Origin: Bactericera cockerelli
Taxonomy: Eukaryota > Arthropoda > Insecta > Hemiptera > Triozidae
Reading direction: 5' to 3'
Length of the DNA stretch: 64,000 nt
NCBI GenBank assembly: GCA_024516035.1
Contig: CM044964.1
Coordinates: 20,528,931 to 20,592,930, forward strand
The stretch's first letter is position 1. Each line of letters starts with the position of its first letter. The notes under the pieces were generated by a model. It did not search any database and was not told the DNA's origin. It worked only from the letters and a program-made list of their open reading frames with translations. Made by a program: the position numbers and the translations under genes. Below are positions 40,709-61,464 of this stretch, piece after piece.

Positions 40709-41355
40709 CTATCGCGGTCGGTCTTCTCCTTCTTTTCCTCTTTCTTCATCTTCACCAACTGCATGGAAAGGAGGGGAACTCAAAATATCGTTGGATCTTC
40801 CCCTCTCATCTTGGTCATTTTCCCCCTCCCCCCTTTCTACTTGATTTTCATCTCCCCTCTCGTAAAAGTCCTCCAAATTGAGTCGACGTCTACGAGAAAG
40901 TATTCTTGGTTCATCATAGCTCATCTCTCCGTTGGATCTTTCCATTTCTTCAAGATCATTTCTCCTCTCTTGCCCTTCTTCAAGGTCATTGCCTCTCTCT
41001 TGTCTTTCTTCAAGGTCATTTCCCCTCTCTTGGCCACCCAAGTCTGCCTCATGAAGTCGAAGTCTTCGCGAATTGATTCTTTGACTGGGGCCCGAACTAA
41101 TGTTCCCTTGGTCACTTCCCCTCTCTTGTATTTCTTCAAGGTCACTTCCCCTCCCTTGTCCAGCCTCCTCTCTCCCATCTAATCGAAGTCTTCGTGAATT
41201 GATCCTTTGACCGGGGGGATCCAAAATGGGGTCCAGAAATGGGGCATCCTCTATCAGATTTTCCAGGTTAATAGGAGGCGGCATCAAATGAATCGCGATG
41301 CCTTCCCATTCACCAGGCCCCATCGGTCGATTCAGGTACTGCTGGAACTCTTCAT
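40709..41355 (-). CDS. Charged-repeat terminal exon, copy 1 (intact)
   Basis: The exon starts after TGCCTGCCCCACAG and enters in phase 1 (G|AT GAA GAG gives DEEFQQYLNRPMGPG). It reads 214 codons without interruption. A short unique part (INLENLIEDAPFLDP) is followed by units of about 10 residues (ERGNDLEERQ and variants), two QRINSRRLRL blocks, PRILSRRRRLNLEDFY and the ending RSNDILSSPPFHAVGED, with TAG at 40709-40711. No known domain. The 3' end runs into tRNA-like sequence (GGGTTCGAAACCC). The upstream exon is not adjacent; the phase fits the FBA exon at 57315-57498. Very high Arg/Glu/Asp content suggests a disordered protein. Function unknown. Confidence 0.6.
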
Positions 41356-41498
41356 CTGTGGGGCAGGCAAAAGAAAAGGTTGTAGTAGTGCTAGTTTTAG
41401 ACTCTCTCTGTAGCAAATAATTGCAACTTCTAGGTTTTTACTAATTTTTTTCCCCCCCTAAATCTACTTTGCTTACGATTAACCTAAGATCTCATTCA

Positions 41499-41806
41499 GC
41501 GGTTTTTTGAACGAAAAGCCTGAACGAGATCGAACAGTCAGCTCTGGTCAGCCAAAATTTGAAGAATAAAAAAAGTTATTTTTGGAACTCTGGTTTGTTC
41601 ACATTAAAGATATCGGTGTTTGTTTACATTTTGCATTTGAAATCATCCACTTCTTCTTCTTCTTACCGAACCAAACGAAATGACCGAACGAACGAGCCGG
41701 TCCACTCTGGTCAGGATTTTTCGGTCCGGTCAAATAAAAAAAAAGTGAATTTCAGTGACCAGGTCAGCTTCGGTTCGCTTCGTTCCAATTAAAAAAACCG
41801 CTTATT
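41499..41806. mobile_element. Possible short inverted-repeat element
   Basis: It begins AGCGGTTTTTTGAACG and ends with the reverse complement of AGCGGTTTTTTTAATTGG. The interior has repeated GAACGA and GGTCAG motifs on both strands. No target duplication is certain. Confidence 0.35.
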
Positions 41807-42076
41807 GTAAACAAAGTATTTATGTCAGTCAAAGTCAATATTAGTTTTTTTAGCATTTACCTATGTACATTATCACAAATCTATTGTCAAATGAACGAGG
41901 TACTCAGTACCTATATATTTAAAAAAAAAAAAAATGCAACTTAACTGTTGCTTTATTTATGGTTCAACGCGGCAATGCAACCTGTATGCTTGGAACTCTA
42001 CCACATGTCGGTGGTATGGACCAAGAATACAACCTTCAATAAATGTGTTGTATTAAACAATAAAAAATATTTATTA

Positions 42077-42351
42077 GCCAGCGTCGATGGCATGTTGAAT
42101 ACACCGGTTCCCTTCAGAACACCGAAGTTAAGCGACATCCAGCGAAGTTAAGACTTGGATGGGTGACCATTCAAATTCTAATTCTCGTGACGCTGGCTTT
42201 TCCCGGCCCCACTCAGGCTGGGTGAGGTCAATGTGAGTAGCAGGTTTGTGAGTTTCCTGCGAATGGAGGGTAAAACCCCCGTCGTGATATGACCATGGCA
42301 GTTGAAAGCGACGTTAAACCCCACTTAAAAAAAAAAAAAAAAAAAAAAAAA
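42077..42351 (+). mobile_element. Full-length 5S rRNA-headed SINE with poly-A tail and target duplication
   Basis: The same element as 35316-35579, nearly identical before the tail. A poly-A of about 25 bases is followed by AATATTTAT, also found just before the head, consistent with a target-site duplication from LINE-type retrotransposition. Confidence 0.92.
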
Positions 42352-43846
42352 ATATTTATGGTTTACTATTGCTTTATGTTTTATCTAGCTTTATTTGGGG
42401 GATCAGCTCCTGTTCTTGATTTGTTTCAGACTGTCTGGTCGAGACAAGGAGTCCCATTACGCTAACAGGTTATCATTCTTAAATAAATACCTCGTGAGGA
42501 AATTTAACTCTGATCTGAGTAGCAAACAGTGGCGGAATCATGGGCAAATGCCACAAATGATAAAATAGGCTTGCCCAAGTTTTTTTCTGCTCTGTACTTG
42601 GATGTCCGAGGTCCACTCATACCTCGTGAGGAAAACTGAGTAGCTGTTTTAATGTGAGAAGTGACCAGTGGAAGATTTATGGTTTAACAATGCACAAGAA
42701 TTAAAAAAAAGTTTTAATTCTGCACTCTCCTAAATTATTAAATAATGACACAAAGATTTTTTTTATTTTTAATAAAGTTTATTTTAAATAATTATTTATT
42801 AATAAAGACATAATAATATACAGTACATTAAGTACTGCAATAGCTGATTAACTACTTTTGTTAAAAATAAGAATATTAGAAAAATAGAAATATATTTCAT
42901 CTCATAGGTTTGTATTTCATATTTAAAAAAAGATGTATTATTATTTTTATATCAAGCTTAATTAGAAGGACAAAGTATACAATATTTACAGCATAAAATA
43001 GTTTTAAAATTAATAAATGATAAAATAGTTTATAGATAACTAATAAACAATAAAAATACTAGAAATTAATCTGAATATCTGATGTAATAATAATGCCCTA
43101 ACTAAAGTTATTGCCTGCGGCAATCTCTTTCCCCAACCCTTGTCAAATCGTTGTACTACAACGATAGGATTTAAGATTTACAATCGATTTTAACGCGGAA
43201 GGGTTTAAGCTAGAGAGCCATGGCATCCTTTAAAATTTGGACAGCAAATTTACGGTAAAGAAATAGTTTGCTACCTCAAAGTACGCTTATGTTTTTTCTG
43301 TATTTCAAGACCAAGTGCCTATTGACCAGTTCGCTCCTTTAAAACTTAGAGTGAGTGTCTTAACCCAGATGGGGCTGACGTCCTTCCAGAAGGACGTCCT
43401 TCTGGAAAGACGTCAACCCCATCTGGTGAAAGGTACTACGTTGTGGATTTTTCTAATTAATTAAGCTTGTTGAGGTTAGTTGGCGACACCTTAAGCTATT
43501 TGTTTTGAGTCCGAGTGATAAGTTGACAGCACTTATTTTGATTCAGGACTCAATTTATATCACTCAAAAAAAATAAAACAAAAAATTTCACCGCGTTATC
43601 TGGGTTAATGCAATATTTTCTTTACCTTATGTCCTTATAAGAAAAAAGAAAGTTAAAAAAAAACTTGTTAGAATAAATAAAACAAAATATAAATCTATAC
43701 CTTACAGGTAAAAATAAGTTTAACAAAAATGTTTGAATAAAAAAGTAAAAATATTTTACCTTATAGGTAATAGAAAGTTTAAAATTTTTTTTTAATAAAC
43801 AAAAAAATTGCCTACTCTGGGTTTCGAACCCACGACCCTACCGCGG
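42352..43846. other. Intergenic repeats between charged exons 1 and 2
   Basis: A CTCGTGAGG-family SINE on the plus strand at about 42515-42690, AT-rich DNA, and a 62-bp palindrome at 43365-43426. From about 43590 the sequence matches the region that lies 3' of each charged exon (ACCTTATAGGTAATAGAAAG blocks and GGGTTTCGAACCC). No gene is seen. Confidence 0.45.
43365..43426. repeat. 62-bp loopless palindrome
   Basis: CCAGATGGGGCTGACGTC to the centre AAGGACGTCCTT and back to CCCCATCTGG. Each arm has 31 bases, with only two mismatched positions and no spacer. It could form a cruciform or an RNA hairpin. It does not belong to any repeat recognised in the window. Confidence 0.85.
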
Positions 43847-45025
43847 TCAGTCCTCTCCTTCTCCTCTTTCTTCTTTTTCACTATGTGCATGGAAAGGAAG
43901 GGAACTCAACTTATCGTTGGTTCTTCCCCTTTCTACTTGATTATCATTTCCCCTCTCTTGGTCTCCAAAGTAAAAGTCCTCCAAATTTAGTGGACGTCTA
44001 CGAGAAAGTATTCTTGTTTTATCATAGCCCAACTCTCCGTTGGATCTTTCCATTTCTTCAAGGTTGATTCTCCTCTCTTGCCTCTCATCAAGATCACTTC
44101 CACTCTTTTGGTCTGCCAATTCTGCCTCATCAAGTCCGATGTCTTCGCGAATTGATTCTTTGACTAAGACCTTCAAGGTCATTTCTCCTCTCTCCAAGGT
44201 TATTTCCTCTTTCTTTTCCTTCTTCAAGGTCATTCCCCTTCTCTTGCGTTTCTTCAAGGTCACTTCCGCTCTCTTGGTCTCCCAATTCTGTCTAATTCAG
44301 TCGACGTCTTCGCGAATTGATTCTTCGACCGGGACGCGAACTATTGTTCTCCTGGTCACTTCCCCTCTCTTGCCTTTCCTCAAGGTCACTTCCCCTCTCT
44401 TGCCTTTCTTCAAGGTCACTTCCCCTCTCTTGCCTTTCTTCAAGGTCATTTTACCTCTCTTAGTCTCCCAATTCTCCCTAATTAAGTCGACGTCTTCGCG
44501 AATTGTTTCTTTGACTGCGACGGAAACTATTGTTGGCCTGATCACTTCCCCTTTCTTGCCTTTCTTCAAGGTCACTTCCCCTCTCTTGCCTTTTTTCAAG
44601 GTCACTTCCCCTCTCTTGCCTTTCTTCAAGGTCATTTCCCCTCTCTTGGTCTCCCAATTCAGCCTCGTCCAGTCGACGTCTTCGCGAATTGTTTCTTTGA
44701 CTGCGACGCAAACTATTGTTGGCCTGATCACTTCCCCTCTCTTGTCTTTGTTCGAGGTCACTTCCCCTCTCTTGCCTTTCTTGAAGGTCATTTCCCCTCT
44801 CTTGGTCTCCCAATTCAGCTTCGTCCAGTCGACGTCTTCGCGAATTGATTCTTTGACTGGGGCCCGAACTATTGTTCCCTTGGTCACTTCCCCTCCCTTG
44901 TCCAGCATCCCCTCCCTCATTTGGAAGAAATTGAAATAATGGAAGATGGTAGAACCTTCCTTGAGCGAGGTCCATTCCCTGCTGAATTATTTCGTCCAGG
45001 TCGATCCAGGCATCCGTGGGAACCT
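43847..45025 (-). pseudogene. Charged-repeat terminal exon, copy 2 (degenerate)
   Basis: The acceptor TGCCTGCCCCACAG and phase-1 entry (G|AG GTT CCC, then VPTDAWIDLDEII) are intact. The frame reads LAQGRFYHLP, GGDAGQGRGSDQGN and three copies of a larger block (QRNNSRRRRL, DEAELGDQERGNDLEERQ) before a stop at 44478. Beyond this the frame has several stops, although the typical ending (RRPLNLEDFYFGDQ, TNDKLSSLPFHAH) is still readable at 43847-44263. The copy is likely non-functional or makes a shorter protein. It shows a second, larger repeat level of about 180-190 bp over the 30-bp unit. Confidence 0.55.
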
Positions 45026-46979
45026 CTGTGGGGCAGGCAAAAAAGAAGTTTAATAATATTTGGAGAAAAAAAATATATTAAATACATGCCATATCTCTTT
45101 TGAAAGGGACTTTTCAGTCTTACCTTGGCACTATAAACAAGTGTTTCATTCAAAATATTCACTTTTTAAATTAGAATAAACATGGCGGAAAAAACATTAT
45201 GTAAAAATCCCATAGATGCAAACATCTTCGTTTTGTTCAAAATATGTATATTTAAAATATTCTTTTTATTTTTTATTTCTCATTATAAAATTCGATTTGT
45301 GCAAATATTCATATAAAGGGAACTGTACGTTAACACGCTTAAGTTATTATTATTATTATTATATTATGTTTTATTAGGTAAGAAAAAAATATATACAGTA
45401 AAATACAATGAAATTATAGAGAAAAAATAAATAGATTGAAAAAAAAAATGAAGCTAATGTCCTACCTAAAAGGCGGGGTTATTGCCTATGGCAACCTCTT
45501 CCACCCAACCTAAGTTATACCTCATTAAGAAATATGACTTTGATGTTAGCAGCAAACAGAGGCGGAATAATGGGCAAATGACACACTAGGTTCGCAGTTC
45601 AGGGATTGATCCCCACAAGATAAGGAATTTTTCTGCGCTGTATTTGGATGTCTGGGGTCCACTCATACCTCGTGGGGAAAAATGAGTAGCTGCCTTATAG
45701 TGAGCAGTGACGAGTGGCGGAATTAAGGGCAAATGATAAACAAAATTTAAGATTTTTTCTTAAATTTCTGAGCTTATAATTCTGCACAACTCACTAAAAT
45801 TGTTAAATAATGACACATATTATTGTTTAATTATTATGATTATTTACGTCTTTTTGCCGTTTCGCCTGTCTGAATGGCGTAACGGTTGTGACTACTGCCC
45901 ATAGTCCAGAGTTCAATTCCCAGAGTTTTCACACAGAAAATTCTGTCCCCTACAAACACGTGAGGCTGGCTTTTCCGGCCTTACTCAGGCTTGGTGAGGT
46001 AAATGTGGGTAGCTGGCACGATTCCCAACGAATTAGGACGTTAAATCTAATAGAATCGTTGGCGTTAGGAAGGGCATTCAGCCGTAAAGTATGTGCCACA
46101 ACCATGAGGTTGAACAATGCCGACTCTAAGTAGGAATGCGAAACGGCAAAATAAAGATGAAGAATTTTTTTTTTTTAATAAAGTTTATTTTTCATAACTA
46201 TTTATTAATAAAGACATATACAGTTTATTAAGTCGAGCAATAGCTGATTAACTATTTCTTAAGAATAAAAATATTAGAAATGTCATGGACGAACTCAGGA
46301 GTGGGGCCTATAAAGGTCGATTTTAAAATCTTGAAATTTTTAATGAGACAACTCATACATTTGATCACATTGGTTCATATTAGCAACAAAAAAAAAATTG
46401 TACCACAACAATCTGATTTAAAATTCAATATCAATTGATACACTTTTTCGTTTTTTTATTTTTCCAAAATAAGAAGCAATAAGATGAAAAATATTAGGTT
46501 TTTATACTTTTTTTTGAGACTAAGTAGCAGCTATGGACCATATTTTTATTCATGTACAAAATTTGCTATTCTAAAACGTTTGCAATATTTTCTGTGCCTA
46601 ATGCGTAAAAGAAAGTTTTTTTTTTTTTTTTTAAATATTTGAATAAATAAAACGAACAAAAATATTATCTGTACCTTAAAGGTAATAGAATTTTTTTTAA
46701 AAAAAACTTGTTTGAATAAACAAATAAAACTATTTTACCTTATAGGTACCTAATAGAAAGTTATTTTATTTATTTATTATATATAAAAAAATTGCTCACG
46801 CTGGGTTTCGAACGCGGTCTGTCCACTCCTGCTTCATGTACAAAGTTTGCTTTTTAAGACATAAGTTATCAGATTTCTAGAAAGCTTGTCTGAATAAACA
46901 TAAAAGATATTTTACCTTGTAGGTAATAGAAAGTTTAAAAATAACTTTTTGAATAAACAAACAAAAAAATTGCTCTAGT
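45026..46979. other. Intergenic repeats between charged exons 2 and 3
   Basis: A CTCGTGAGG-family SINE (about 45540-45730), a tRNA-headed SINE (45873-46135), AT-rich DNA, and from about 46610 a degenerate copy of the usual 3' flank of the charged exons with GGGTTTCGAAC near 46802. No coding region is supported. Confidence 0.45.
45873..46135 (+). repeat. tRNA-headed SINE with the shared body
   Basis: The head GGCGTAACGGTTGTGACTAC, B-box-like GAGTTCAATTCCC, then the body (AGGCTTGGTGAGGTAAATGT, GGTAGCTGGCACGATTCCCA) and a tail containing CAACCATGAGGTTGAACAAT. Confidence 0.7.
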
Positions 46980-47115
46980 TGGGTTTCGAACCCATGACCC
47001 TACCGCGGTTGGTCCTCTCTTTCTTCATCTTCACCATCCGTATGGAAGGAGGGGAACTCAAATTATCGTTGGATCTTCCCCTCTCTTCTTGGTCATTTCC
47101 ACTCTCTTCCCTGGC
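46980..47115 (-). pseudogene. Truncated charged-exon 3' end
   Basis: Only the terminal part (REESGNDQEERGRSNDN, LSSPPSIRMVKMKKE) and the tRNA-like flank remain, in tandem with copy 3. No acceptor is present. Confidence 0.55.
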
Positions 47116-47229
47116 CATTCAAACTTGATTGAATAAACAAAACAATTCTGTACCTTACAGGTAATAGAAATTAAAAAAAAAAACTTGTACATAAAAAAAT
47201 TGCTTACGCTGGGTTTCGAACCCACGACC

Positions 47230-47777
47230 CTATGGCGGTCGGTCCTCTCCTTCTTCTCCTCTTTCCTCATCTTCACCAACCGCATGGAAAGGAGGGGAAC
47301 TCAAATTATCGTTGGATCTTCCCCTCTCTTCCCTTTCTACTTGGCTCTCATTTCCCATCTCTTGGTCTCCAACGTAAAAGTCCTCCAAATTGAGTCGACG
47401 TCTACGAGAAAGTATTCTTAGTTCATCATAGCTCATCTCTCCGTCAGAAATTTCCATTATTTCTTCAAAGTCATATCTCCTCTCTTGCCTTTCTTCAAGG
47501 TCATTCCTTCTCTCTTGCGTTCCTGCTGGGTCATTTCTATTCAAATCATGGCTTGAAGAGATGGAAAGATCCAAAGGAGATCTTTGGTCACTTCTCCTCT
47601 CTTGGTTAGCCTCCCCTCTCCCATATTGTTCGTTTCTTGGTATATAGAGTCTTTGAGCGGGATCCGGATGGTTCACTATCAGGTTGGGATCACGGCGGAA
47701 TACTTGGTCCAGATCGATATAAAAAGCGGGCTCCATGGGTTGCTGGTGTTGGTTCAGGTACTCCTGGAACTCTTCAT
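47230..47777 (-). CDS. Charged-repeat terminal exon, copy 3 (intact)
   Basis: The acceptor TGCCTGCCCCACAG enters in phase 1 (G|AT GAA GAG, DEEFQEYLNQHQQPMEPAF) and reads 181 codons to TAG. The N-terminal unique part has YIDLDQVFRRDPNLIV and DPAQRLYIPRNEQYG, followed by QERRSDQRSPLDLSISSSHD, a few 10-residue units (QERRNDLEER), LRILSRRRRLNLEDFYVGDQ and FHAVGEDEERGEEGEDRPP. DPAQR-YxPR and SPLDLS are shared with copies 4-6. DEEFQ and the ending are shared with copy 1, so copy 3 links the two subgroups. Function unknown. Confidence 0.6.
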
Positions 47778-48054
47778 CTGTGGGGCAGGCAAGAAAAGTT
47801 CATGGTTGTGGGTGAACATTTTCTCCGCAAAAAAATCTATGAACTTCAAAGAAATTAACTCTTTGCAAAATTTAAGCTTTGTGGAACAGAAACAAGAACA
47901 TTATTCCGCATTACAACTCCTCAAATCACTCCGCAAAAGTGTTTCTGGAACAGAAACTGGATGTGCGGAGTGAGAAGTACGGAGCGGCTATGCGCTTTCA
48001 GGAACAGGCTCCATATCTCTTTTCAAAGGGACTCTTCAGACTTAACTCGGCAGT

Positions 48055-48480
48055 ATAAATAAATTATACCTCGTGAGGAAAAATGAGTAACCCGCTTTAA
48101 AGTGAGCAGTGAACAGTGGCGGAATGATGGGCAAATGCCGCAAATGATACAAAAAGTTTGCACGCACGGTGACCCGGATTCAATCCCTAAAAGTACAGGA
48201 ATTTTTCTGCTCTGTAATTGGATGTCCACTCATACCTCGTGAGGAACAATGAGTAAGCTGTTTTAAAGTGAGCAGTGAACAGTGGTGGAATTATGGGCAA
48301 ATGCCACAGGTGATTCAATAGGCTTTGCATGAACGGTTCTATGTTTGATCCCCACAAGGACAGGAATTGTTTCTATTCACCAGGATGTCCGGCGTGCACT
48401 GATACCTTGTGAGGAAAAATGAGTAGCTGCTTTGAAGTAAAAAGTGACCAGTGGCAGAATTATGGGCACACATATGGAAA
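48055..48480 (+). repeat. Three tandem CTCGTGAGG-family SINE-like units
   Basis: Repeated blocks of CTCGTGAGGAA...GAGTA, AGTGAGCAGTGAACAGTGG and GGAATTATGGGCAAATGCC, with B-box-like GATTCAATCCC or GTTTGATCCCC. They lie 3' of nothing coding; copy 3 of the charged exons starts 280 bases away on the other strand. Confidence 0.55.
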
Positions 48481-49012
48481 TATGTGGACATTTAATAAAA
48501 CCATCTTATAATTCTGTGCTCCCAACAAAAATTGTAAAATAATAATACAAAGAACATATTATTTTTTAAGAATAACTTTTTTTTAAATATAAATAAAGTT
48601 TATTTTTAATAATTATGTATAAATAAAGACATGTATACAGTTCATTAAGTCCAGTAATAGATGATTAACAACTTTTCTGAAGAATAAAAATATTAGAATG
48701 TCAGGGACAAACTCAGGAGCAGGGCCCATGGCGGTCGATTATAAAATCTTGAAACTTTTAATGAGACACCCACTATTTTTCACCTCATTGGTTTAAAATT
48801 TTGTAAATAAAAAATAAAAAATGTGAATTTGGACAGCAATTTCCAAAGTACGCTGATGTTATCCATACACTTTTTTTCAACACCAAGTGGCAATTGAATG
48901 ATAAGTTTAAGCAAACAATTTTTATTGCTTCTTTCGTGTAAGTACATACTTTTATATATGTACAAAGTCATACTTTTATTCATGTAAAAAGTTTGCTCTA
49001 TTAAAACATATA

Positions 49013-49946
49013 CAGGGCCTCCATAAAGTCTCACCCAGGATTGGGTTTCCCGAAAATGACTCAAAATATCAAAAAACGCAAAAACACGTTATTCTTTATT
49101 TTTAGGGGGATTAATTTTCAGCGATTTTTTTGCCTACACGGCCCCAGCCAGGCTGGGCAATCTGGGCATGGACCAATTTTAAAATCTTAAATGGAATGGC
49201 ACATCGTGTGGCATATTGTTTTAAAGGTTTCATCGAGAGAAGTTCATTGCAAAATTCAGTGAGCTACGACTTACGGTTCTTGAGATACAGAGTCGGACGT
49301 CCTGTGTAATATCCATTTATTTTGAGCTATAACTCGTTAACCGTAAGTTCCAGAAGGATGAAATTGGTTGATAATAACTCCTTATGCCGAGACCTTTTTC
49401 ACAAGTTATAACTCGATTTGTTTTTCAGTTAAAACTTTTGCCGAATGGTCGTCTGGCAGGCTGACGAAACCTACCAGAAACTAACATCAACAGAATAGGT
49501 CGAATTACACCTTGTTCGAAAGGTCTCAATAAAAGCAGTAAATATCAACAAATTTTCTCCTTCTGGAACTTACGGTTAACGAGTTATAGGTCAGAACATA
49601 GGGATATGAGCCAGGACGGCCGACCCTGTATCTCGAGGTATGTCGTAGCCCATTGAAATTTGTTGCGATGAACTTCTCTTAATGAGGCTTTTAAAACCCG
49701 CCCTTTAGTTAGGACATATATGATGTATATATTTATTTATTTTTTCTTTATTTTTTTCTTCTATTATATTGTCTATTGCATTTTCATTTGAAATTATTTG
49801 TATTGTATATAATATGTCCTATTACCTAATAAAGTGTAAAAAAAAACAAGACATACCATTTAATTTTTGATTTTAAAATTGGTCCGTGCCCAGCCTGAGT
49901 CGTTTGCCCGGAATCCAGACCTGGATGAGACTTTATGGAAGCCCTG
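49013..49946. mobile_element. Fold-back element with inverted ends and nested internal palindromes
   Basis: The left end CAGGGCCTCCATAAAGTCTC matches the reverse complement of the right end (CAGGGCTTCCATAAAGTCTC). The left flank is TA; the right flank is CA, probably a mutated TA. Inside, ACTCGTTAACCGTAAGTTCC (about 49327) is matched in inverse near 49560-49585, and the arms around GAGAAGTTCAT are also inverted. The whole unit is a large imperfect palindrome with no ORF. Confidence 0.65.
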
Positions 49947-50218
49947 CATATAAATAAAAATATAATAAATAAATGAAAGAATAAATAATTTTTATAAAAC
50001 AAATAAAGAATGCCATTGGGAAATGTACATATCATACTTGGAGAGCTATCTCGACAAAGCCCAACACACTCATTACGAAGAATACAATCATCATCATAGG
50101 GTGGCGTCATCGTGAACGATGGTAGCCAGACAGTGGAGGAATGACTCAGCACTTCTACCACTGTCTTTACAAGGAGGCTAATAAGGCACACAGAAGGCAC
50201 AAGAATACAATACCTATC

Positions 50219-50510
50219 CTAATTACCATAGGTCTTTACTCTTCTGAATTTTGCATGTGCTTTATCCCTAGCCTTCAGGACAGTTCTGATACTATCAATC
50301 AGCCATGGGGCAGGGGGACGTTTAACACGGCGCTGTTTGGAAGGCATATGCAACTCAAAGAGGACTTGGATGATTTGACCCAATTCAGCGACTTTTTCAT
50401 TGTCTGCATCCCAAATAAAGAGTTCCAATTGATATCACAGAAGCGTCCTCAAGAAGCTTTTCTATAACCAGATTCTTATAGTCCCTAACATAGGTCATCA
50501 GATTGAAAAT
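50219..50510 (-). pseudogene. LINE (non-LTR retrotransposon) ORF fragment, first of three
   Basis: The minus strand reads LFIWDADNEKVAELGQII, then RPPAPWLIDSIRTVLKARDK, AHAKFRRVKT. The PWxxDxIR...RDKAxxxxRR pattern is typical of the linker between endonuclease and reverse transcriptase in non-LTR retrotransposon ORF2. The same block heads the duplicated segments at 52355 and 54000. Confidence 0.65.
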
Positions 50511-50754
50511 GTCATATTGCAATATTTTCAGTACCTAAGAGCTAATAGAAAGTTTTTAAAAAACTTGTCTGGATAAACAAATAAAAATATTTTAACCTTA
50601 TAGGTAATAAGTTTTAAATATTTTTTTTTAAATAAATAAAAATATTATTATTAATAAACAACAACAAAAAAATTGCTTACGCTGGGTTTCGAACCCACGA
50701 ACCTGCTGCGGTCGGTCTTCTCCATCTTCTCCTCTTTCTTCATCTTCACCAAGC

Positions 50755-51898
50755 TCATGGAAAGGAGGGGAACGCATATATATTTACATAATTATAATCT
50801 ATAATGTCGTTCCGGTCAAGTCGACGGCGACGAGGCAGTTTTCTTCTCTCTTGCCTTTCTTCAGGCTCATTTCTCCTCTCTTGCCTTTCTTCAGGCTCAT
50901 TTCTCCTCTCTTGACTTTCTTCGGGGTCATTTCGCCTTTCTTCAAGGTCATTGCCCCTCTCTGGCATGGAAAGATCTCAACGGTCATCCCCTAGAACTCT
51001 GGTCATTCCCCTCTCTGGCATTTCTTCAAGGTCATTCCCCCTCTCTTGCCTTTCTTCAGGCTCATTTCTCCTCTCTTGCCTTTCTTCAGGGTCATTTCTC
51101 CTCTCTTGCCTTTCTTCAGGCTCATTTTGCCTTTCTTCAAGGTCATTCCCCTCTCTGGCATGGAAAGATCCAACGGAGAACTCTGGTCACTTCCCCTCTG
51201 CTGTCGTCCAGCGCCTATAAATCTCCATGGAAAATAGACTCTTTGAGCGGGGTCTTCATTTCTCCTCTCTTGCCTTTCTGCAGGCTCATTTCTCCTCTCT
51301 TGCCTTTCTTCAGGGTCATTTCTACTCTCTTGCCTTTCATCAGGCTCATTTCTGCTCTCTTGCATTTCTTCAAGGTCATTCCCCCTCTCTGGCATTTTTT
51401 CAAGGTTATTCCCCCTCTCTGGCATTTCTTCAAGGTCATTTCTCCTCTCTTGCCTTTCTTCAGGCTCATTTCTCCTCTCTGACATTTCTTCAGGATCATT
51501 TCTCTTATCTTGCCTTTCTTCAGGCTCATTTCGCCTTTCTTCAAGGTCATTCCCCCTCTCTGGCATGGAAAGATCCAAAGGAGAACTCTGGTCATTTCCC
51601 CTCTCTGGCATTTCTTCAGGCTCATTTCTCCTCTCTTGCCTTTCTACAGGCTCATTTCTCCTCTCTTGCCTTTCTTCAGGCTCATTTCGCCTTTCTTCAA
51701 GGTCATTCCCCCTCTCTGGCATGGAAAGATCCAACGGAGAACTCTGGACACTTCCCCTCTGCTGTCGTCCAACGACTATTATTCTCCTTGGGAAATAGAC
51801 TCTTTGAGCGGGGTCTTTATGGTTCAATATCATCAATTCCCGTCGACGGTTGTCGTAGAATTCTTGCAAATAATCCAAATCGTTGAGCATTCTTTCAC
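50755..51898 (-). CDS. Charged-repeat terminal exon, copy 4 (longest; frame breaks near its 3' end)
   Basis: The acceptor TGCCTGCCCCACAG enters in phase 1 (G|GT GAA AGA, GERMLNDLDYLQEFYDNRRRE). It then reads DPAQRVYFPRRIIVV, SSPLDLSMPERGNDLEER and about 20 units of 10 residues (ERRNEPEERQ, ERGNDLEEMP, SRNEPDERQE), including partial duplications of the SSPLDLSMPERG and DPAQRVYFPWR blocks. The frame is continuous to about 51150, where a run of four C (five elsewhere) shifts it. A further four-C run lies at about 51006, and 50980-51000 is rearranged. The usual ending resumes at 50755-50967 (PRRRRLDRNDIIDY). If the C runs are assembly errors the exon may be whole. Function unknown. Confidence 0.5.
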
Positions 51899-52167
51899 CT
51901 GTGGGGCAGGCAAAAAAGTTCATTGTTATGGTTGAGGTTAATGTGGGTAGCTGGTACGATTCCCAGTGAATGGAGGGTAACACCCTCGTCTTGATCAGGA
52001 CGTTAAAACCAAATGGAATCGTTGGCGTTCGGAAGGACGTCGAGCCGTAAAAAAAGTGCACCACCCTAACAAACTCAACCATGAGGTTGAACAATGCCGC
52101 CCCAACAGCAACACAAGCAAATATGGGATAAAGGCTAGGAAGATATTTATTGTTTTAAAAAAATACA

Positions 52168-52355
52168 TAGCTTTCAACTCCATGGTTAAATCACAACTGG
52201 GATTTTACCCTCCATTCGCTGGAAACTCACAAACCAGCTACTCAAACCAGATCAGTGAAGCCAGCAATAGCCAGCCAGCATCACGAGGATTCAATTCGAA
52301 ATGGTCACCCATTCAAGTTCTAGCCTCGCTGGACGTTGTTTAACTTTCAGTGACT
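52168..52355 (-). repeat. 5S-headed SINE, 5'-truncated
   Basis: The minus strand has AAGTTAAACAACGTCCAGCG, GAACTTGAATGGGTGACC and the shared body up to GAGTTGAAAGCTA. Equivalent copies lie in the other segments at 53814-53998 and 55985-56175. Confidence 0.65.
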
Positions 52356-52545
52356 GATACTATCAGTCAGCCATGGGGCAGGGGGACGTTTAACACGGCG
52401 CTGTTTGGAAGGCATATGCAACTCAAAGAGGACTTGGATGATTTGACCCAATTCAGCGACTTTTTCATCGTCTGCATCCCAAATAAAGAGTTCCAATTGA
52501 TATCACAGAAGCGTCCTCAAGAAGCTTTTCTATAACCAGATTCTT
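52356..52545 (-). pseudogene. LINE ORF fragment, second copy
   Basis: Nearly identical to 50284-50470; part of the second duplicated segment. It is truncated on both sides and not functional. Confidence 0.6.
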
Positions 52546-52850
52546 GTAGTCCCTAACATAGGTCATCAGATTTTAAGAAAATGTCATATTGCAATATTTT
52601 CAGTACCTAAGAGCTAATAGAAAGTTTTAAAAAAACTTGTCTGGATAAACAAATAAAAATATTTCAACCTTATAGGTAATAAGTTTTAAATACTTTTTTT
52701 AAAAACAAAAATACTATTATTAATAAACAACAACAAAAAAATTGCTCACGCTGGGTTTCGAACCCACGAACCTGCCGCGGTCGGTCTTCTCCTTCTTCTC
52801 CTTTTTCTTCATCTTCACCAAATGCATGAAAAGGAGGGGAACGCATATAT

Positions 52851-53544
52851 TTACAAATAATCTATAATGTCTTCCAAGTTAAGTCGACGGCGACGAGGCA
52901 GTATTCTTGGTCGACCGCCCAAAACATAGCGCACTCTTTCTTCAGGCTCATTTCTCCTCTCTTGCCTTTCTTCAAGGTCATTCCCCCTCTCTGGCATTTC
53001 TTCAAGGTCATTTCCCCTCTCTGGCATTTCTTCAAGGTCATTTCCCCTCTCTGGCATTTCTTCAAGGTCATTTCCCCTCTCTGGCATTTCTTCAAGGTCA
53101 TTTTCCCTCTCTATCATTTCTCCAAAGTCATTCCCCTCTCTGGCCTTTCTTCAAGGTCATTCCCCCTCTCTGGCATTTCTTCTAGGTCATTCCCCCTCTC
53201 TGGCATTTCTTCAAGGTCATTCCCCCTCTCTGGCATTTCTCCAAGGTCATCCCCCCTCTCTGGCATTTCTTCAAGGTCATTCCCCCTCTCTCGGTCATCG
53301 AGTCGACGGCGGCGAGAAAGTATTCTTGGCTCAGCGCTCAAGTCATGGCTTGAAGAAATGGAAAGATCCAACGGAGATCTCTGGTCACTTCCCCTCTGTT
53401 GTCTAACCTCTAATCTCCCATTTCGTAGAATCATTGGAAAATAGACTCTTTGAGCGGGGTCTTCATGGTATAATATCATCGAGGATTCCCGTCGACGGTT
53501 GTCGATGTGTTCTTGCAAATCCAAATCGTTGAGTATTCTTTGAC
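52851..53544 (-). CDS. Charged-repeat terminal exon, copy 5 (one frame break)
   Basis: The acceptor TGCCTGCCCCACAG enters in phase 1 (G|GT CAA AGA, GQRILNDLDLQEHIDNRRRE). DPAQRVYFPMILRNGRLEV, QRSPLDLSISSSHDLSAEPR and ILSRRRRLDDRE follow, then a run of ERGNDLEEMP units. A four-C run at 53133-53136 shifts the frame. The other frame continues with IERENDLEEMPERGND and ends PRILPRRRRLNLEDIIDYL. Restoring frame across one base would give about 230 residues. Unlike copy 4, the SRRRRL block appears twice, once before and once after the repeats. Confidence 0.5.
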
Positions 53545-53813
53545 CTGTGGGGCAGGCAAAAAAAGTTCATTATTATGGTTGAGTTTAATGTGGGTAGCTG
53601 GTACGATTCCCAGCGAATAGATGGTAACACCCTCGTCTTGATCAGAACGTTAAACCCAAATAGAATCGTTGGCGTTAGGAAGGACGTCGAGCCGTGGAAA
53701 AAGTGCACCACCCTAACAAACTCAACCATGAGGTTGAACAATGCCGCCCCAACAGCAACACAAGCAAATATGGGATAAAGGCTAGGAAGATATTTATTGT
53801 TTTAAAAAAATAC

Positions 53814-53998
53814 ATAGCTTTCAACTCCATGGTTAAATCACAACTGGGATTTTACCCTCCATTCGCTGGAAACTCACAAACCAGCTACTCAAACCAGATC
53901 AGTGAAACCAGCAATAGCCAGCATCACGAGGATTCAATTCGAAATGGTCACCCATTCAAGTTCTAGCCTCGCTGGACGTTGTTTAACTTTCAGTGACT
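53814..53998 (-). repeat. 5S-headed SINE, 5'-truncated
   Basis: The counterpart of 52168-52355 in the second segment, with the same breakpoints. It was copied with the segment and did not insert independently. Confidence 0.65.
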
Positions 53999-53999
53999 G

Positions 54000-54170
54000 A
54001 TACAATCAGTCAGCCATGGGGCAGGCGGACGTTTAACACGGCGCTGTTTGGAAGGCACATGCAACTTGGATGATTTGACCCAATTCCGCAACTTTTTCAT
54101 CGTCTGCATCCCAAATAAAGAGTTCCAATTGATATCACAGAAGAGTCCTCAAGAAGCTTTTCTATAACCA
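54000..54170 (-). pseudogene. LINE ORF fragment, third copy
   Basis: Matches 52356-52545 but lacks about 15-20 bases near 54064 (part of the CAACTCAAAGAGGACTTGG stretch), so it is further decayed. Confidence 0.55.
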
Positions 54171-54396
54171 GATTCTTGTAGTCCCTAACATAGATCATCA
54201 GATTTTAAGAAAATGTCATATTGCAATACTTTCAGTACCTAAGAGCTAATAGAAAGTTTTAAAAAAACTTGTCTGGATAAACAAATAAAAATATTTTACC
54301 TTATAGATAATAAGTTTTAATTTTTTTTTTTTTAATAAACAAAAATATTACTCTTAATAAACAACAACAATTTCATACAAATTATTACTTGAAGCA

Positions 54397-54630
54397 TTGC
54401 CATTGGGTAGTTTAAATAACCGAAGAATATTTTACCAACTAACAATCGTACATGACCTCATTAACAACAACATTATTTGTCCAGAAATAATTAACAAAAT
54501 AAAATTCAAAGTTCCCAACATAAACCTGAGACAAAAGTCAGAACCAAAATACTTCGACACACCGAGTGGGAGTTGTCCTGTGGCTTTTGACTCACCCCTT
54601 CTATCTTCCCTAGTATCTTGCCTTAGGTAG
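54397..54630 (+). pseudogene. C-terminal fragment of a different LINE ORF2
   Basis: The plus strand reads PLGSLNNRRIFYQLTIVHDL, then INNNIICPEIINKIKFKVPN, with a stop at 54628-54630. The pattern L..RR....L...L.N..I.CPE......F.VP is that of the C-terminus of jockey-like non-LTR elements. It belongs to a roughly 390-bp insertion (54370-54760) absent from the equivalent place in the second segment. Confidence 0.55.
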
Positions 54631-54886
54631 TGAGGAATACAGATGTAAGTGTAGGGAAAAACTCAATATAGATACAAAGTAGGCTCAATTTAGATAGGAA
54701 TATTCTATTTGCGTAATTGCAACATTAATTGTTGCGTGCAAACGGAATTAAAAAAAAAACAACAAAAAAATTGCTCACGCTGGGTTTCGAACCCACGAAC
54801 CTGCCGCGGTCGGTCTTCTCCTTCATTTCCTCTTTCTTCATCTTCACCAAACGCATGGAAAGGAGGGGAACGCATATATTTACATA

Positions 54887-55120
54887 TCTTAATATATAAA
54901 TGTCAAAGTCACTGACTGACCACTGACTGATCATCGCTGTACCTCCCAAACCGTAAGTCCTAGGAAGCTGAAATTTGGTAGGTAGCTTTGTCTTATGGTC
55001 TAGATGTGCCATAAGACGGGATTTTTCGAAATTCCCACTACAACACCTGCCATTGGCGAAAAAGGTTTTTGTGCTTTCACGGCCATGCCTCGGCCCGCAA
55101 AGCGGGCGACAGCCCGCTAG
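54887..55120 (+). mobile_element. 234-bp non-autonomous Helitron-like element
   Basis: It starts TCTTAATATATAA, ends in the hairpin GCCCGC-AAA-GCGGGC followed by GACAGCCCGCTAG, and sits between A (54886) and T (55121). 5' TC, a 3' hairpin, a CTAG end and A/T insertion are the Helitron hallmarks. The second tandem segment has the nearly empty site (TTTACAAATAATCTATA, about 52851-52867). No ORF. Confidence 0.85.
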
Positions 55121-55719
55121 TAATCTATATAGTCTTCCAAGTTAAATCGACGGCGACGAGGCAGTATTCTTGGTTGACCGCCCAAAACATAGCGCACCCT
55201 TTCTTCAGGCTCATTTCTCCTCTCTTGCCTTTCTTCAAGGTCATTCCCCCTCTCTGGCATTTCTTCAAGGTCATTTCCCCTCTCTGGCACATCTTCAAGG
55301 TCATTTTCCCCTCTCTATCATTTCTTCAAAGTCATTCCCCCTCTCTGGCCTTTCTTCAAGGTCATTCCCCCTCTCTGGCATTTCTTCAAGATCATTCCCT
55401 CTCTCTGGCATTTCTTCAAGGTCATTCCCCCTCTCTGGTATTTCTTCAAGGTCATTCCCCCTCTCTCGGTCATCGAGTCGACGGCGGCGAGAAAGTATTC
55501 TTGGCTCAGCGCTCAAGTCATGGCTTGAAGAAATGGAAAGATCCAACGGAGATCTCTGGTCACTTCCCCTCTGTTGTCTGACCTCTAATCTCCCATTTCG
55601 TAGAATCATTGGAAAATAGACTCTTTGAGCGGGGTCTTCATGGTATAATATCATCGAAGATTCCCATCGACTCTGGTCGAAGTGTTCTTCCCAATTCAAA
55701 TCGTTGAGTATTCTTTCAC
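55117..55719 (-). CDS. Charged-repeat terminal exon, copy 6 (stop supplied by the Helitron; one frame break)
   Basis: The acceptor is TTGACTGCCCCACAG, one base different from the others, with phase-1 entry (GERILNDLNWEEHFDQSRWE). DPAQRVYFPMILRNGRLEV and QRSPLDLSISSSHDLSAEPR match copy 5. The ERGNDLEEMP units then run to 55301, where four C (three in copy 5) at 55308-55311 shift the frame into a stop. The other frame continues (EDVPERGNDLEEMP, then PRILPRRRRFNLEDYIDY) and ends at TAG 55117-55119. Those stop bases are the CTAG terminus of the Helitron-like insert. Without the insert the exon would probably end IIDYL as in copy 5. Confidence 0.5.
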
Positions 55720-55984
55720 CTGTGGGGCAGTCAAAAAAGTTCATTGTTATGGTTGAGTTTAATGTGCGTAGCTGGTACGATTCCCAGCGAATAGATGGTA
55801 ACACCCTCGTCTTGATCAGAACGTTAAACCCAAATAGAATCGTTGGCGTTCGGAAGGACGTCGAGCCGTCAAAAAAGTGCACCACCCTAACAAACTCAAC
55901 CATGAGGTTGAACAATGCCGCCCCAACAGCAACACAAGCAAATATGGGATAAAAGCAAGGAAGATATTTATTGTTTAAAAAAAA

Positions 55985-56175
55985 ATACATAGCTTCAACT
56001 CCATGGTTAAATCACAACTGGGATTTTACCCTCCATTCGCTGGAAACTCACAAACCAGCTACTCAAACCAGTTCAGTGGGGCCGGCAATAGCCAGCATCA
56101 CGAGGATTCAATTTGAAATGGTCACCCTTTGAAGTTCTAGCCTCGCTGGAAGTTGTTTAACTTTCAGTGACTGAA
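55985..56175 (-). repeat. 5S-headed SINE, 5'-truncated
   Basis: The third counterpart of 52168-52355; it marks the outer end of the third tandem segment. Confidence 0.6.
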
Positions 56176-57110
56176 TAGCTACTTCGATGTGAGCAGTGAC
56201 AAGAATTCAAAAAGAAAGGAAAAGTCCTATCATTGTGCGCTATACTAAAAGTGATATCTATTTTTTTTACTTTTCTTTTAGGGAATTCCGATTCGATTCC
56301 AGATCTAATTACACAAAGAACACAGTAATACGATTACAACACATTCACATTCAATTTACAAAAGAAAAAAAAAACGGAATACATATCGCTTACCGAATTA
56401 AAATGGCGTCCTGTTCAATTTGTCATGAACGTCCAAAATGGCGGCCTCTGAATCAGAATTTTTTAATAGTTTTAAAAAACGCAGTACAATGACACTAGTT
56501 TAAACGAAAAAAATAAACGTTCCAGCTTTCAATCGTTCAAAGTTCAACCAGCTGTTTCTGGAATTTATGAACGCACTGTATTGTATACAATACAAATGCC
56601 AGCCTCCGTGGCGTAATGGTTGTGACTACTGCCCGTAGTCCAGAGTTCCCGAGTTCAACTCCCGGTTGGGGCAGACTTTTCGATGAAAATTCTGTTTCGT
56701 CCAAACACGTGAGGCTGGCATTTCCGGTCCTCCCCAGGCTGGGTGAGGTTAATGTGGGTAGCTGGTACGATTCCCAGCGAATGGAGGGTAAAACCCGCGT
56801 CCTGACTATCTATCTCAGTCAGTACGTTAAAACCAAATAGAATCAACTGGTCACAATAGATCTAATTAGGTCGCAGTGTTAATTGTAAGGGTTTCACTGA
56901 AAACCCTGCAACCAGGTCAGATAATAATAAATACAATACAAATAGTGAAAACATAGAAATAGACGGTCAGCGGTCAAGACGTTGTTTTCGTAATCCAGAG
57001 GTCGTGGGTTCGAAACCCAGCCGGGACATGACAAGTTATCCTCCCATTTAGGATTTTAACCACATAACAATACGTCTGGGGCAGTATGAATAAGGTAATA
57101 TTATTAATAT
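56176..57110. other. Intergenic or intronic DNA 3' of the FBA exons
   Basis: It contains a tRNA-headed SINE on the plus strand (56598-56850) and part of another tRNA-like SINE (about 56950-57110, with GTGGGTTCGAAACCCAGC). If the FBA exon is spliced to the charged exons, this stretch is intron. No exon of its own is recognised. Confidence 0.4.
56598..56850 (+). repeat. tRNA-headed SINE with the shared body, well preserved
   Basis: CTCCGTGGCGTAATGGTTGT, B-box-like GAGTTCAACTCCC, then the body GGCTGGCATTTCCGGTCCTC, GGCTGGGTGAGG, GCTGGTACGATTCCCAGCGA and ATGGAGGGTAAAAC. It is the best copy for comparing the body with that of the 5S-headed SINE. Confidence 0.75.
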
Positions 57111-57129
57111 TTATATAAAAAAATATAAT

Positions 57130-57305
57130 TATAGATATATTAAAAAGGTAATTGTGCCCCTGAACTGCTTTCGCAATACTTTACCTTTACACTCATGCCA
57201 TTTCGGTAACGGAAGAACTCGGTCAGAATTTTCCGCTCCGGCCGGGATTCGAACCAGCAACCTCCGGGTCAGTAGCCAATGCTCTTAACCACTGAGATAT
57301 TATTA
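57130..57305 (-). repeat. tRNA-like SINE placed at the FBA exon donor
   Basis: The minus strand begins about 10 bases after the exon donor and reads ATCTCAGTGGTTAAGAGCAT (A box) and GGTTCGAATCCCGG (B box), then a non-tRNA tail rich in AT. Read-through of the exon continues in frame into the SINE to a stop at 57223, giving 31 extra residues. Confidence 0.7.
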
Positions 57306-57314
57306 AGCATTTAC

Positions 57315-58397
57315 CTGTCATGGCAGGCACGTTATTGGCTACGTCGATCTCATATGCAACACCAGGGGGCACTAGCATCACAGTACTGTGAGTGATCTTG
57401 GGACCATAATGGCCCTTCCAAAACTGATTATCACTCGCCCGATGACAAAACTTCACGTATCGTGTGCCTTCAGGATAATCCACCAACTTGTTCTCTACCT
57501 GAGAAATTGAATCAAAATTATTTGTTTAGTTGCCCCTTCAAGTATCCTATAATGCCCCTTCCAAAACAGATTATCACTCGCCTGATGAGTAAACTTCACG
57601 TATCGTGCGGCTTCAGGATAATTTACATGCTTGTAATATACCTGAGAAATTTAAAAAAAAAAAAAAAAAAAATTGTATAGTTAGTTGCCCCTTCAATTAT
57701 CCTATAATGCCCCTTCCAAAAGTGATTATGACTCTCTCAATGAGTAAATTTCAAAGAACAATACAGTATGTCTCAAAAGGCTTTGCCCTTTGCTTTTTAC
57801 TCTTTGTCAAGCAAGTATTTCAGGTAAGGTTAAGGTTACATTTAAAAGGTGATGTGACCGACATCCTGCCAGTTAAGGTTCTTATCTACAGGGACATGGT
57901 GTATTTGCTTCAACAGTTCTTGACTATACTCGTCCACAAGGTTAGTAGGTTATGTAATATTTTGTATAACCTATTTATTTTTAAGAAACCACTCTCTAAA
58001 AAAAGGTGAAGTTAGGTTTACGTTATCAAGGGTATCCAGCCAAAAAAAACGTGCTTTACCCAACCAACCTCAACCATGAGGTTGAACAATGCCGACCCCA
58101 ATAGCAACTTGAAGTAATGATATTTTTGTTCCAAGTGCGGTTAGCTTTTAGAGAAGGTGGGTTTTTAGTGGGTGGAAATCCCACACCCCAGGATCTGGGT
58201 GTCTTTGAAAGATTTTTTCCTGCCTTCCATTAAAAAAAAATAGCAACATAAGCTAATATGGAATATGACCTACCTTCCGCCAGTTAAAGTCATCTACAGT
58301 TGTATGGTGTATCTGTTTCAAAAGTTCTTGTCTATCCTTATCCAGGAGAGTTACCGTGAGAGTGTAGTTCCCTCCACAGTCATGCCGTCGACAGAAC
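57315..58397 (-). CDS. F-box-associated (FBA) domain protein, two internal exons; F-box part not found
   Basis: Exons 58274-58397 and 57315-57498 join in phase 0. The first has acceptor TTTTCCCCAG and donor AAG|GTAGGT, the second acceptor TTTCTCAG and donor CAG|GTAAAT. Together they read DCGGNYTLTVTLLDKDRQEL, DDFNWRKVENKLVDYPEGTR and YVKF, then SDNQFWKGHYGPKITHST. This matches the C-terminal half of the FBA domain of FBXO2/6/44-type proteins (DCGC-Y-L, W-V, DYP-GVR-V-F, QFWAGHYGPRVTNS). In that family the FBA domain recognises substrates for SCF ubiquitin ligases, often glycoproteins. The F-box and the N-terminal FBA half are not visible between here and 62039, so the gene is incomplete, rearranged or decayed. 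The final donor is phase 1 and is followed, on the same strand, by six phase-1 charged exons. Confidence 0.7.
57540..57905 (-). pseudogene. Decayed tandem copies of the FBA exons, inside the FBA intron
   Basis: About 57545-57640 copies the second exon (acceptor TTTCTCAG kept; HVNYPEAARYVKF, ASDNLFWKGHY) but lacks the end and donor. About 57690-57770 is a more damaged copy (FWKGHYRIIEGAT). About 57840-57905 copies the end of the first exon (QELLKQIHHVPVD, LNWQ). The order shows that the exon pair was duplicated and the extra copies degenerated. Confidence 0.65.
57910..58270. other. FBA intron sequence
   Basis: AT-rich DNA with a SINE tail fragment near 58060-58115 (CAACCATGAGGTTGAACAAT). No coding signal. 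Confidence 0.4.
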
Positions 58398-58772
58398 CTG
58401 GGGAAAATAATTGTGTTTCTTTGTGTTATCATGTCACAATTTTAGTGGGTTATAGAACACAGAATTATAGGACTTTTCTGAATCTTTGAGATAAGAACAG
58501 ATACCTATATCACAGTGGTGAGAGGATTATATGGACACCCAGATCCAATGTTAAGGCTCGTTTCATGTCCATTCATTTTTAGTGTAATGCAGAATTGTAG
58601 TACATTTCATTATTTTTTTTATTTAAATTTTATCTGGTAAATTTGGTCTTGACATTTTGAAAAAAATGAATGACCTACCATGAGATAGGCACGGATACCT
58701 ATATCACAGTGGTGAGAGGATTATATGGGCTGAGATCCAATGTTAAAGCTCGTTTCATGTCCATTGATTCTA
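58398..58772. repeat. Interspersed repeat upstream of the FBA exons
   Basis: Two copies of CACAGTGGTGAGAGGATTAT...GTTTCATGTCCATT (about 58511-58575 and 58701-58765), also present next to the transposon at 7840-7920. No exon for the missing F-box region was found here. Confidence 0.5.
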
Positions 58773-60422: not shown

Positions 60423-60516
60423 TATTTAGTTGTAGCGCAGAATTATAGGACATTTCCGTATCTTCATTGATTCTATTTAGTTGTAGCACATTTAGTGAGT
60501 AGGGCAGAATTATAGG

Positions 60517-60720
60517 ACATGTCTGTCCCGGTAGCTCAGTGGTAAAGGTGACACTCTGTGAATCCAAAGTTTCCAGAGGTCGTGGGTTCGAAACCCAACC
60601 GGGACAAGTTATCCTTCCATTTGGGATTTTTACCACATAATAATATGTCTTGGGCTTACTGCTGGAATAATGGGACTTTAGTAGTCTTAATCGGGCAGTA
60701 TAAATAAGGCGATATTATTA
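60517..60720 (+). repeat. tRNA-derived SINE with preserved acceptor stem
   Basis: GTCCCGGTAGCTCAGTGG (A box) and GTGGGTTCGAAACCC (B box) are enclosed by GTCCCGG / CCGGGAC, which pair fully. The anticodon loop would be about 15 bases, so it is not a working tRNA. A family tail follows, shared with 57010-57110 (TATCCT-CCATTT, GGGCAGTATGAATAAGG-like). Confidence 0.65.
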
Positions 60721-60804
60721 TTATCCTCAATATCCTATCTTTTAATTTTTTGCCTATATCTGCCACTGGTAACTGCTTGCATTAATTTTTTCCTCACGAG
60801 GTCT

Positions 60805-60937
60805 CACTGCTCATTTTTCCTCACGAGATCTGAGTGGACCCCGAATATCTAAATACAGAGCAGAAAAAATCCTGCCCCACTGGGTATCAAACCCGGGTCA
60901 CCATGCATGCACTAACTCACTCAGCCATGGTGACTAC
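60805..60937 (-). repeat. tRNA-like SINE, CTCGTGAGG family
   Basis: The minus strand begins GTCACCATGGCTGAGTGAGT, with B-box-like GGGTTTGATACCC, then CTGCTCTGTATTTAGAT and CTCGTGAGGAAAAA. It is one of the better copies of the family. Confidence 0.65.
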
Positions 60938-61087
60938 TCAGAACTTGGAGAATATGACAGTTAGGCTATCTAGACACGACCAGTTTGTAACTTTTAAACT
61001 AGTTTTGACTTTTGTCTTCCTTTATTACGAATATTTTATGCTTCGTTTTGTTTTTTTTTTTTTTTTACCCTTTTTATAAACATATGA

Positions 61088-61180
61088 TAGCCATAGTCCA
61101 TGGCACATTGAATACACCAGGTCTCGTTTTGTCACTAAAGTTAAGCAACAACCAGCAAGGTCAGGACTTGAATCCGGTAT
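61088..61180 (+). repeat. 5S-like SINE head, truncated and diverged
   Basis: CATGGCACATTGAATACACC, AAGTTAAGCAACA and AGGACTTGAAT follow the 5S-like head. The body is absent. Confidence 0.5.
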
Positions 61181-61438
61181 AAAAGAAGTTCATTTCTGTA
61201 AAAACTTGTCAGAGATTGTTTAGTGACATTCAAATATTTCTTTTCTGAGTTCGGTCATACTTTTTTCAACTTCTTTTTACGCTCTAAAGGAACTTCAAAT
61301 AATATTATCCGAAATAATACTTTGTAGTCAAGTTTATCCAGTTCATAATAACAAAATAAAATATATTTAAAATTTTAAACCTATTAATGAAAACTGTAGC
61401 ATGTTTCTGTTGTTGAATACAATAAAAAAGTTCTGGAC

Positions 61439-61444
61439 TTTTAT
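61439..61444 (-). terminator. Candidate polyadenylation signal of IQUB
   Basis: TTTATT on the plus strand is AATAAA on the minus strand. It lies just beyond the 56-bp array, so the array would be in the IQUB 3'UTR. Confidence 0.4.
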
Positions 61445-61464
61445 TGTTATTAATTAAGTAGAAA

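Follow-up and report, generated by a model that had tools for sequence, protein, structure and literature searches.

Tandem terminal exons and Fbs-type F-box proteins

FBXO2, FBXO6 and FBXO44 (the Fbs proteins) are lectin-type substrate receptors of SKP1-CUL1-F-box (SCF) ubiquitin ligases. Substrate receptors usually diversify through gene duplication. Here we describe a locus of the psyllid Bactericera cockerelli in which a gene of this kind is followed by six charged exons (E1 to E6) that look like tandem copies of its terminal exon. The bank and the last two exons of the gene's constant part lie in a stretch of 64,000 nucleotides (assembly GCA_024516035.1, contig CM044964.1, positions 20,528,931 to 20,592,930, forward strand; hereafter the window), while the remaining exons were found in the adjoining upstream stretch of the assembly (window numbers 64001-74000). 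Judged from the DNA, it is reasonably probable that this is one F-box/FBA gene with a tandemly duplicated terminal exon, the copies of which serve as alternative last exons.

Tandem homologous, mutually exclusive terminal exons are described for Drosophila pip and PGRP-LC in PMC9013439. The psyllid locus resembles them in its predicted tandem homologous terminal exons. However, for pip and PGRP-LC the paper speaks of untranslated or 3' variable regions and of competing RNA structures, whereas the copies here would code for the tails of a ubiquitin-ligase receptor, and a search for unbroken helices revealed no pairing of this kind common to the six units. In Drosophila mod(mdg4), constant exons are joined to one of more than 30 3' exons, and PMC12692577 attributes this to trans-splicing, the 3' exons being spread over both strands; the psyllid copies are confined to one strand, and cis-splicing would suffice. 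Like FBXO2, FBXO6 and FBXO44, the predicted protein has an F-box and then an FBA domain, with the CRxVC pattern, but differs from them in the charged C-terminal tail that a tandem exon bank would supply. Fbs2, for its part, possesses its own C-terminal tail (PMC6389600). In the portions of the literature that were searched, we found no F-box gene with a bank of terminal exons. Fbs-type F-box proteins and tandem alternative terminal exons are both familiar already, and the locus would be a new case of the latter, in an F-box gene.

A complete F-box/FBA core

All the exons of the gene are on the minus strand. The sequence-only reading of the window had recognized a single FBA exon, ending in phase 1 at a good donor. 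This end was confirmed: the last exon base is 57315, the exon terminates in TGACAG without a stop and is followed by gtaaat, a donor that outranks 99.2% of 3407 GTs under a rough matrix. The FBA identity also stood, although the FBA part in the window turned out to be two exons with decayed copies between them. Exon 5 (58397-58274, phase 2 to 0) covers profile positions ca. 90 to 131, and exon 6 (57498-57315, phase 0 to 1) covers ca. 132 to 174 plus a short linker. Together they make up the C-terminal half of the domain (PF04300, 1.2e-17, profile 90-174 of 175) and also match the FBXO2/44/6 structures. In the intron that separates them, decayed copies of exons 5 and 6 were found at 57961-57866, 57754-57704 and 57632-57549, also on the minus strand. 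By their similarity, local duplication has hit the constant exons too.

The absence of an F-box had been counted against the alternative-tail reading, and neither an F-box nor the N-terminal FBA half came up when the minus strand between 35001 and 64000 and the greater part of the plus strand (except 50001-54000) were scanned with Pfam. A search of 58275-62035 for an F-box among sequences of known structure gave no F-box, only a Tc1-like transposase. The missing parts sit beyond the window edge: a Pfam scan of the upstream stretch recovered an F-box (2.9e-04) and FBA profile positions 18-89 (1.4e-08). When an open frame flanked by acceptor and donor was sought between the two matches, a single candidate exon came out, with phases fitting both sides. 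A truncated F-box pseudogene, first suggested by the window-only search, was overturned by these upstream exons. Exons 2 (70875-70749), 3 (69482-69303) and 4 (68332-68050) were completed by a start exon (71255-71217) added by its likeness to the closest relative, P0001 (see below). The six spliced exons amount to 937 bases, i.e., 312 residues and one base, without a stop and with the five internal joins in phase. The start of the core protein is the least certain part, and the acceptor before exon 2 (ccaaaag) is poor. A 294-residue part of the core contains a complete FBA domain (PF04300, 2.5e-42, profile 4-174 of 175) and an F-box (PF00646, 8.1e-10, 38.6 bits against a cut-off of 20.5), and matches the FBXO2 structure 2e31 at 6.7e-36. 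The W-K pair of the mouse Fbs1 loop is retained (FWKG to YWKG), a likeness drawn from the alignment only. The aligned loop residues may be those with a role in sugar binding, and binding of SKP1 and N-glycans is putative here. The F-box signature CRxVC, named as such in PMC3210139, takes the form CRRVC and spans the exon 2/exon 3 junction. By all its predicted domains, the locus is a complete F-box/FBA gene of the FBXO2/6/44 type.

A bank of six terminal exons

Downstream of exon 6, the six charged exons that had been proposed, with nearly identical acceptors, a common entry in phase 1 and a stop codon of their own, were all recovered on the minus strand: E1 (55719-55301, 139 residues), E2 (53544-53114, 143 residues), E3 (51898-51003, 298 residues, with long 10-residue repeats), E4 (47777-47230, 182 residues), E5 (45025-44478, 182 residues) and E6 (41355-40709, 215 residues), the most distal copy. 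Tandem homologous terminal exons of the same phase thus stand behind a single donor. The introns from 57315 would measure 1.6, 3.8, 5.4, 9.5, 12.3 and 16.0 kb. The acceptor TTGCCTGCCCCACAG is present in five exact copies and one with a single mismatch, all on the minus strand and at the six exons. Allowing up to two mismatches, the window contains seven matches against 0.05 expected; the seventh (56074, two mismatches) belongs to no E exon. Throughout the 565-Mb assembly, the 17-base acceptor with at most one mismatch was found eight times, at the six E exons and two other places, with four matches for the reversed control. The 3-kb stretches around the two outside matches gave no match to FBA or E-exon queries at E 0.1; the occurrence of E tails elsewhere in the genome is judged from this acceptor search alone. 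All six acceptors outrank 99.6% of 3762 AGs (rough matrix), that of E1 being nearly as strong as that of E6.

The encoded tails are all Arg/Glu-rich, with 38 to 46% charged residues and a net charge of -24 to -4, and differ most in the 30 to 50 residues behind the junction. Only in E4 and E6 is the frame open to the C-terminal end of the family. E1, E2 and E3 stop early by frameshift, their counterpart of the family C-terminal motif being out of frame, and in E5 there are in-frame stops ahead of the family end and then a frame change. Assembly errors may be behind the frame breaks in these four. AATAAA or ATTAAA does not closely follow most of the stops, and within 200 bases it was found after that of E6 only, which fits E6 best.

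The bank appears, from its similarity pattern, to be the tandem duplication of one terminal exon. Profile and similarity scans found no FBA pieces among the E exons, so E1 to E5 look like copies of the terminal exon only, not of whole genes. E1, E2 and E3 are young, with 93 to 96% identity over the 300 bases upstream of their acceptors, while E4, E5 and E6 are older (65 to 71% over stretches of ca. 700 bases upstream). The 15-base acceptor is 93 to 100% identical in all 15 pairs of copies; beyond -30, by contrast, intron identity falls to 10 to 40% (ungapped) in the 12 pairs with at least one of E4, E5 and E6. The first exon bases are 10 to 20% identical (ungapped) in the pairs with E5, and E4 and E6 are alike over their first 30. 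The exact words shared by E4, E5 and E6 are few: the acceptor, parts of the repeats and of the C-terminal end, and TCGTGGGTTCGAAACCCAG, which resembles the 3' end of a short interspersed nuclear element (SINE) and is common, together with the repeat words, to all six copies. E6 is likely to be the ancestral type.

Each E unit also carries, at its 3' end, a tRNA T-arm-like word, GGGTTCGAAACCC, followed by a run of T (two such words at E4). It is found at 54794, 52765, 50696, 47223, 46993, 43831 and 40702 of the minus strand and twice on the plus strand within repeats. In E4 and E6 the last codons and the stop extend into this word, which looks as though the exon had captured a SINE end. The analysis gave no support for a tRNA gene at the ends of the exons.

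Relatives carry tails at the same junction

The full core retrieved nine related proteins from the protein collection. No matches there were found for the E6 exon alone or for the last FBA exons with the tail, nor in two scans of viral contigs. The best relative, P0001, is 59.5% identical over core residues 1 to 312; its source sequence of 1614 bases is probably a cDNA. The next are Diaphorina citri M8J76_008880 (P0002) and M8J76_007122 (P0003), 52% and 50% identical to the core, and further ones come from a damselfly, frogs, a fish and a nematode. In structure comparison, the predicted model of P0001 matches FBXO2, FBXO6 and FBXO44 best. Its tail begins at the junction of exon 6 and the E exons: after NNVPTM it continues with SDSEQQNVVHDVGWDGIPIELIPP..., and here NNVPAM is followed in E6 by (T)DEEFQQYLNRPMGPGEWEGIAIHLMPP... 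We compared the tails of the three relatives with the six E heads (n=18). The P0001 tail against E6 was the best of the 18 (score 54 against a mean of 27.2 in 2000 shuffles, p ~0.001), P0002 against E6 came next (p 0.009), and the remaining comparisons were all above 0.05. Over 340 residues, P0002 and P0003 show 86% identity; they diverge ca. 30 residues past the junction, the P0003 tail being Arg/Glu-rich and that of P0002 not. They thus resemble the locus described here in having the same core followed by different tails, one of them Arg/Glu-rich, but they are two protein models with one tail each, against one core and six terminal exons. These comparisons suggest that the presence of a tail behind the junction is conserved, that E6 is likely ancestral and that divergence or exchange of tails also takes place in other psyllids.

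The joining of the FBA exon to a terminal exon of the E type is well supported for E6 by prediction and relatives alike, because the core is stopless, the phases agree and P0001 crosses the junction into an E6-like tail. Splicing of E6 to the core in B. cockerelli is therefore very likely.

How the bank may work

Six constant exons would encode the F-box and the FBA fold, ending without a stop at the phase-1 donor 57315, and a seventh, terminal exon would add the mixed-charge tail. Starting from an ancestral E6, tandem duplication would have inserted E5, E4 and then the young E3 to E1 between exon 6 and E6, an order suggested by their divergence. Since acceptor, phase and stop have been retained, each copy can serve as an alternative last exon. 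Most likely, the pre-mRNA would run through the bank, one E exon would join the donor and the 3' end would be formed at the chosen copy, so that the ligase module would carry one of several tails, which may steer its location or the binding of partners. We lean slightly towards the use of at least one further copy besides E6, E4 being the first candidate. More tentative, and rather doubtful as a whole, is the joint proposal of a ligase re-targeting cassette in which a constant F-box/lectin module would yield at least three proteins by choice among the terminal exons, with the segments near the junction diversifying faster than the rest.

The E tails are probably disordered; the P0001 tail, much shorter, is modelled with low confidence (predicted local distance difference test, pLDDT, 39-51), which is consistent with this. 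Mixed-charge domains rich in Arg are able to target proteins to nuclear bodies (PMC9324279), and by analogy one could guess the same for the E tails, although their net charge is negative.

Were alternative use real, one recognition core with only its last exon multiplied would amount to an evolutionary experiment seen at different ages, since a single locus has three young copies and two older ones next to their probable ancestor, and it would raise the direct question of whether the tail alters where the ligase is or what it tags. The locus also offers a dated series for the origin of alternative terminal exons, with SINE-like 3' ends at each copy. If E6 alone were used, it would be a clean example of terminal-exon duplication without function.

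Constraint on the copies and alternative explanations

The ratio of nonsynonymous to synonymous differences per site (pN/pS) in the true frame was below 1 in five of the six head comparisons (0.57-0.76: E1/E3 0.59, E1/E4 0.62, E2/E3 0.57, E2/E4 0.65 and E3/E4 0.76) and 0.38 for the E4/E6 tails. In neutral simulations with an assumed divergence of 0.08 to 0.4 per lineage, the share of runs in which the open reading frame (ORF) of E4 or E6 stayed free of stops ranged from 17% to as little as 0.05%, and it was free of both stops and frameshifts in at most 1.1%. Intact ORFs in E4 and E6 are unlikely under neutral drift at these rates. Overall, the tests weakly favour constraint on E4 and E6, with little for the other copies. 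A search for competing RNA pairing, covering unbroken helices in 1415 of 1595 intron bases, gave no site of 10 or more pairs common to the six units, and 9 pairs no more than in eight shuffles.

Several points weigh against the use of all the copies. Four of the six (E1, E2, E3 and E5) appear to stop prematurely with respect to the family end. Acceptor and phase seem to be shared by descent and are not six independent signs; as both were inherited by the copies, their common phase amounts to a single sign (a chance of about one in three), and the acceptors of E1 to E3, with upstream introns 93 to 96% identical, would give little evidence of constraint. E6 is the sole copy that resembles the P0001 tail, which is short and without the repeats, and this match falls to near 0.02 once corrected for the 18 comparisons. 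The pN/pS is not low for the E1/E2 heads (1.24) or for the tails of E4/E5 (0.81) and E5/E6 (1.38), in the middle part of E5/E6 the wrong frame gives a lower value (0.34) than the true one (0.59), and the smallest of ten p values (0.010) is lost on multiple-test correction. No shared competing RNA pairing was found in the bases covered. Thus, of the proposal of an FBA module with six interchangeable tails, the join to an E-type exon holds through P0001, the phases and the stopless core, while the interchangeable use of all six, something we infer, is weakened by the early stops, the likeness confined to E6 and the weak constraint.

The foremost competitor is that one terminal exon is used, the ancestral E6, and that E1 to E5 are decaying by-products of duplication, spliced rarely or never. 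This would accommodate the early stops in E1, E2, E3 and E5, the relative's tail matched by E6 only and the several pairs with pN/pS near or above 1, and the decayed FBA exon duplicates nearby indicate that non-functional copies do arise here. We nevertheless consider it less likely than alternative use, given that E4 is intact to the family end, which neutral drift at the assumed rates would seldom allow, that E4 and E5 have kept all 15 acceptor bases despite their diverged flanks, and that the nearest copy, E1, with an acceptor nearly as strong as that of E6, would need to be skipped.

That the bank is partly an artefact of assembly, with collapsed or expanded repeats and indel errors, seems very improbable. 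The region is rich in repeats, several of the frame breaks fall within G and A runs and the IQUB-like ORF nested in the gene (see below) likewise has one, but E4, E5 and E6 differ too much, both among themselves and in comparison with E1 to E3, for assembly duplicates. An artefact could be confined to the frames or to the number of the young copies E1 to E3.

It had also been objected that each E exon might have a first exon of its own. Before E1, E2 and E3, no coding first exon (ATG to phase-1 donor) was found above a donor cut-off of 3.5, a limit under which the gene's own exon-2 donor (0.58) would be missed; before E4 to E6 there were five candidates, four codons long or within old tail copies. 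The notion that the E exons are separate small genes and the FBA gene ends elsewhere is hardly credible, even allowing for a non-coding first exon or weak donor and for the internal ATG at residues 4-23 of each E exon, in view of a core stopless at its last donor, of P0001 with the same core joined to an E6-like tail and of the scarcity of first exons just described.

Other features of the region

The intron between exons 4 and 5 (9.65 kb) houses two further elements. An IQUB-like ORF (65409-62039, minus, PF25805, 5.8e-27), in which no intron was seen, is on the same strand as the F-box gene and has one frame break near 63.1 kb; it is a possible retrocopy, and its part upstream of the window (to 65409) is assigned from frame continuity only. 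A 56-base tandem repeat (61395-62178) runs over and past its end. The second element is a Tc1-like transposon (58803-60393), the long inverted arms of which comprise 200 nt at 97% and 413 nt at 96%, and it contains a transposase piece that resembles Sleeping Beauty SB100X (5.1e-28). A tRNA-like stretch at 60525-60606 (plus, 29.1 bits) and, between E5 and E6, a 5S-rRNA-like one at 42077-42198 (plus, 64.7 bits) are both probably SINE heads. Going upstream from the F-box gene, the first neighbour has ORFs at 75214-77401 (plus, window numbering) that look like AIMP1. On the other side, a single plus-strand ORF of 1834 residues (29055-34559) is very abundant in charged residues.

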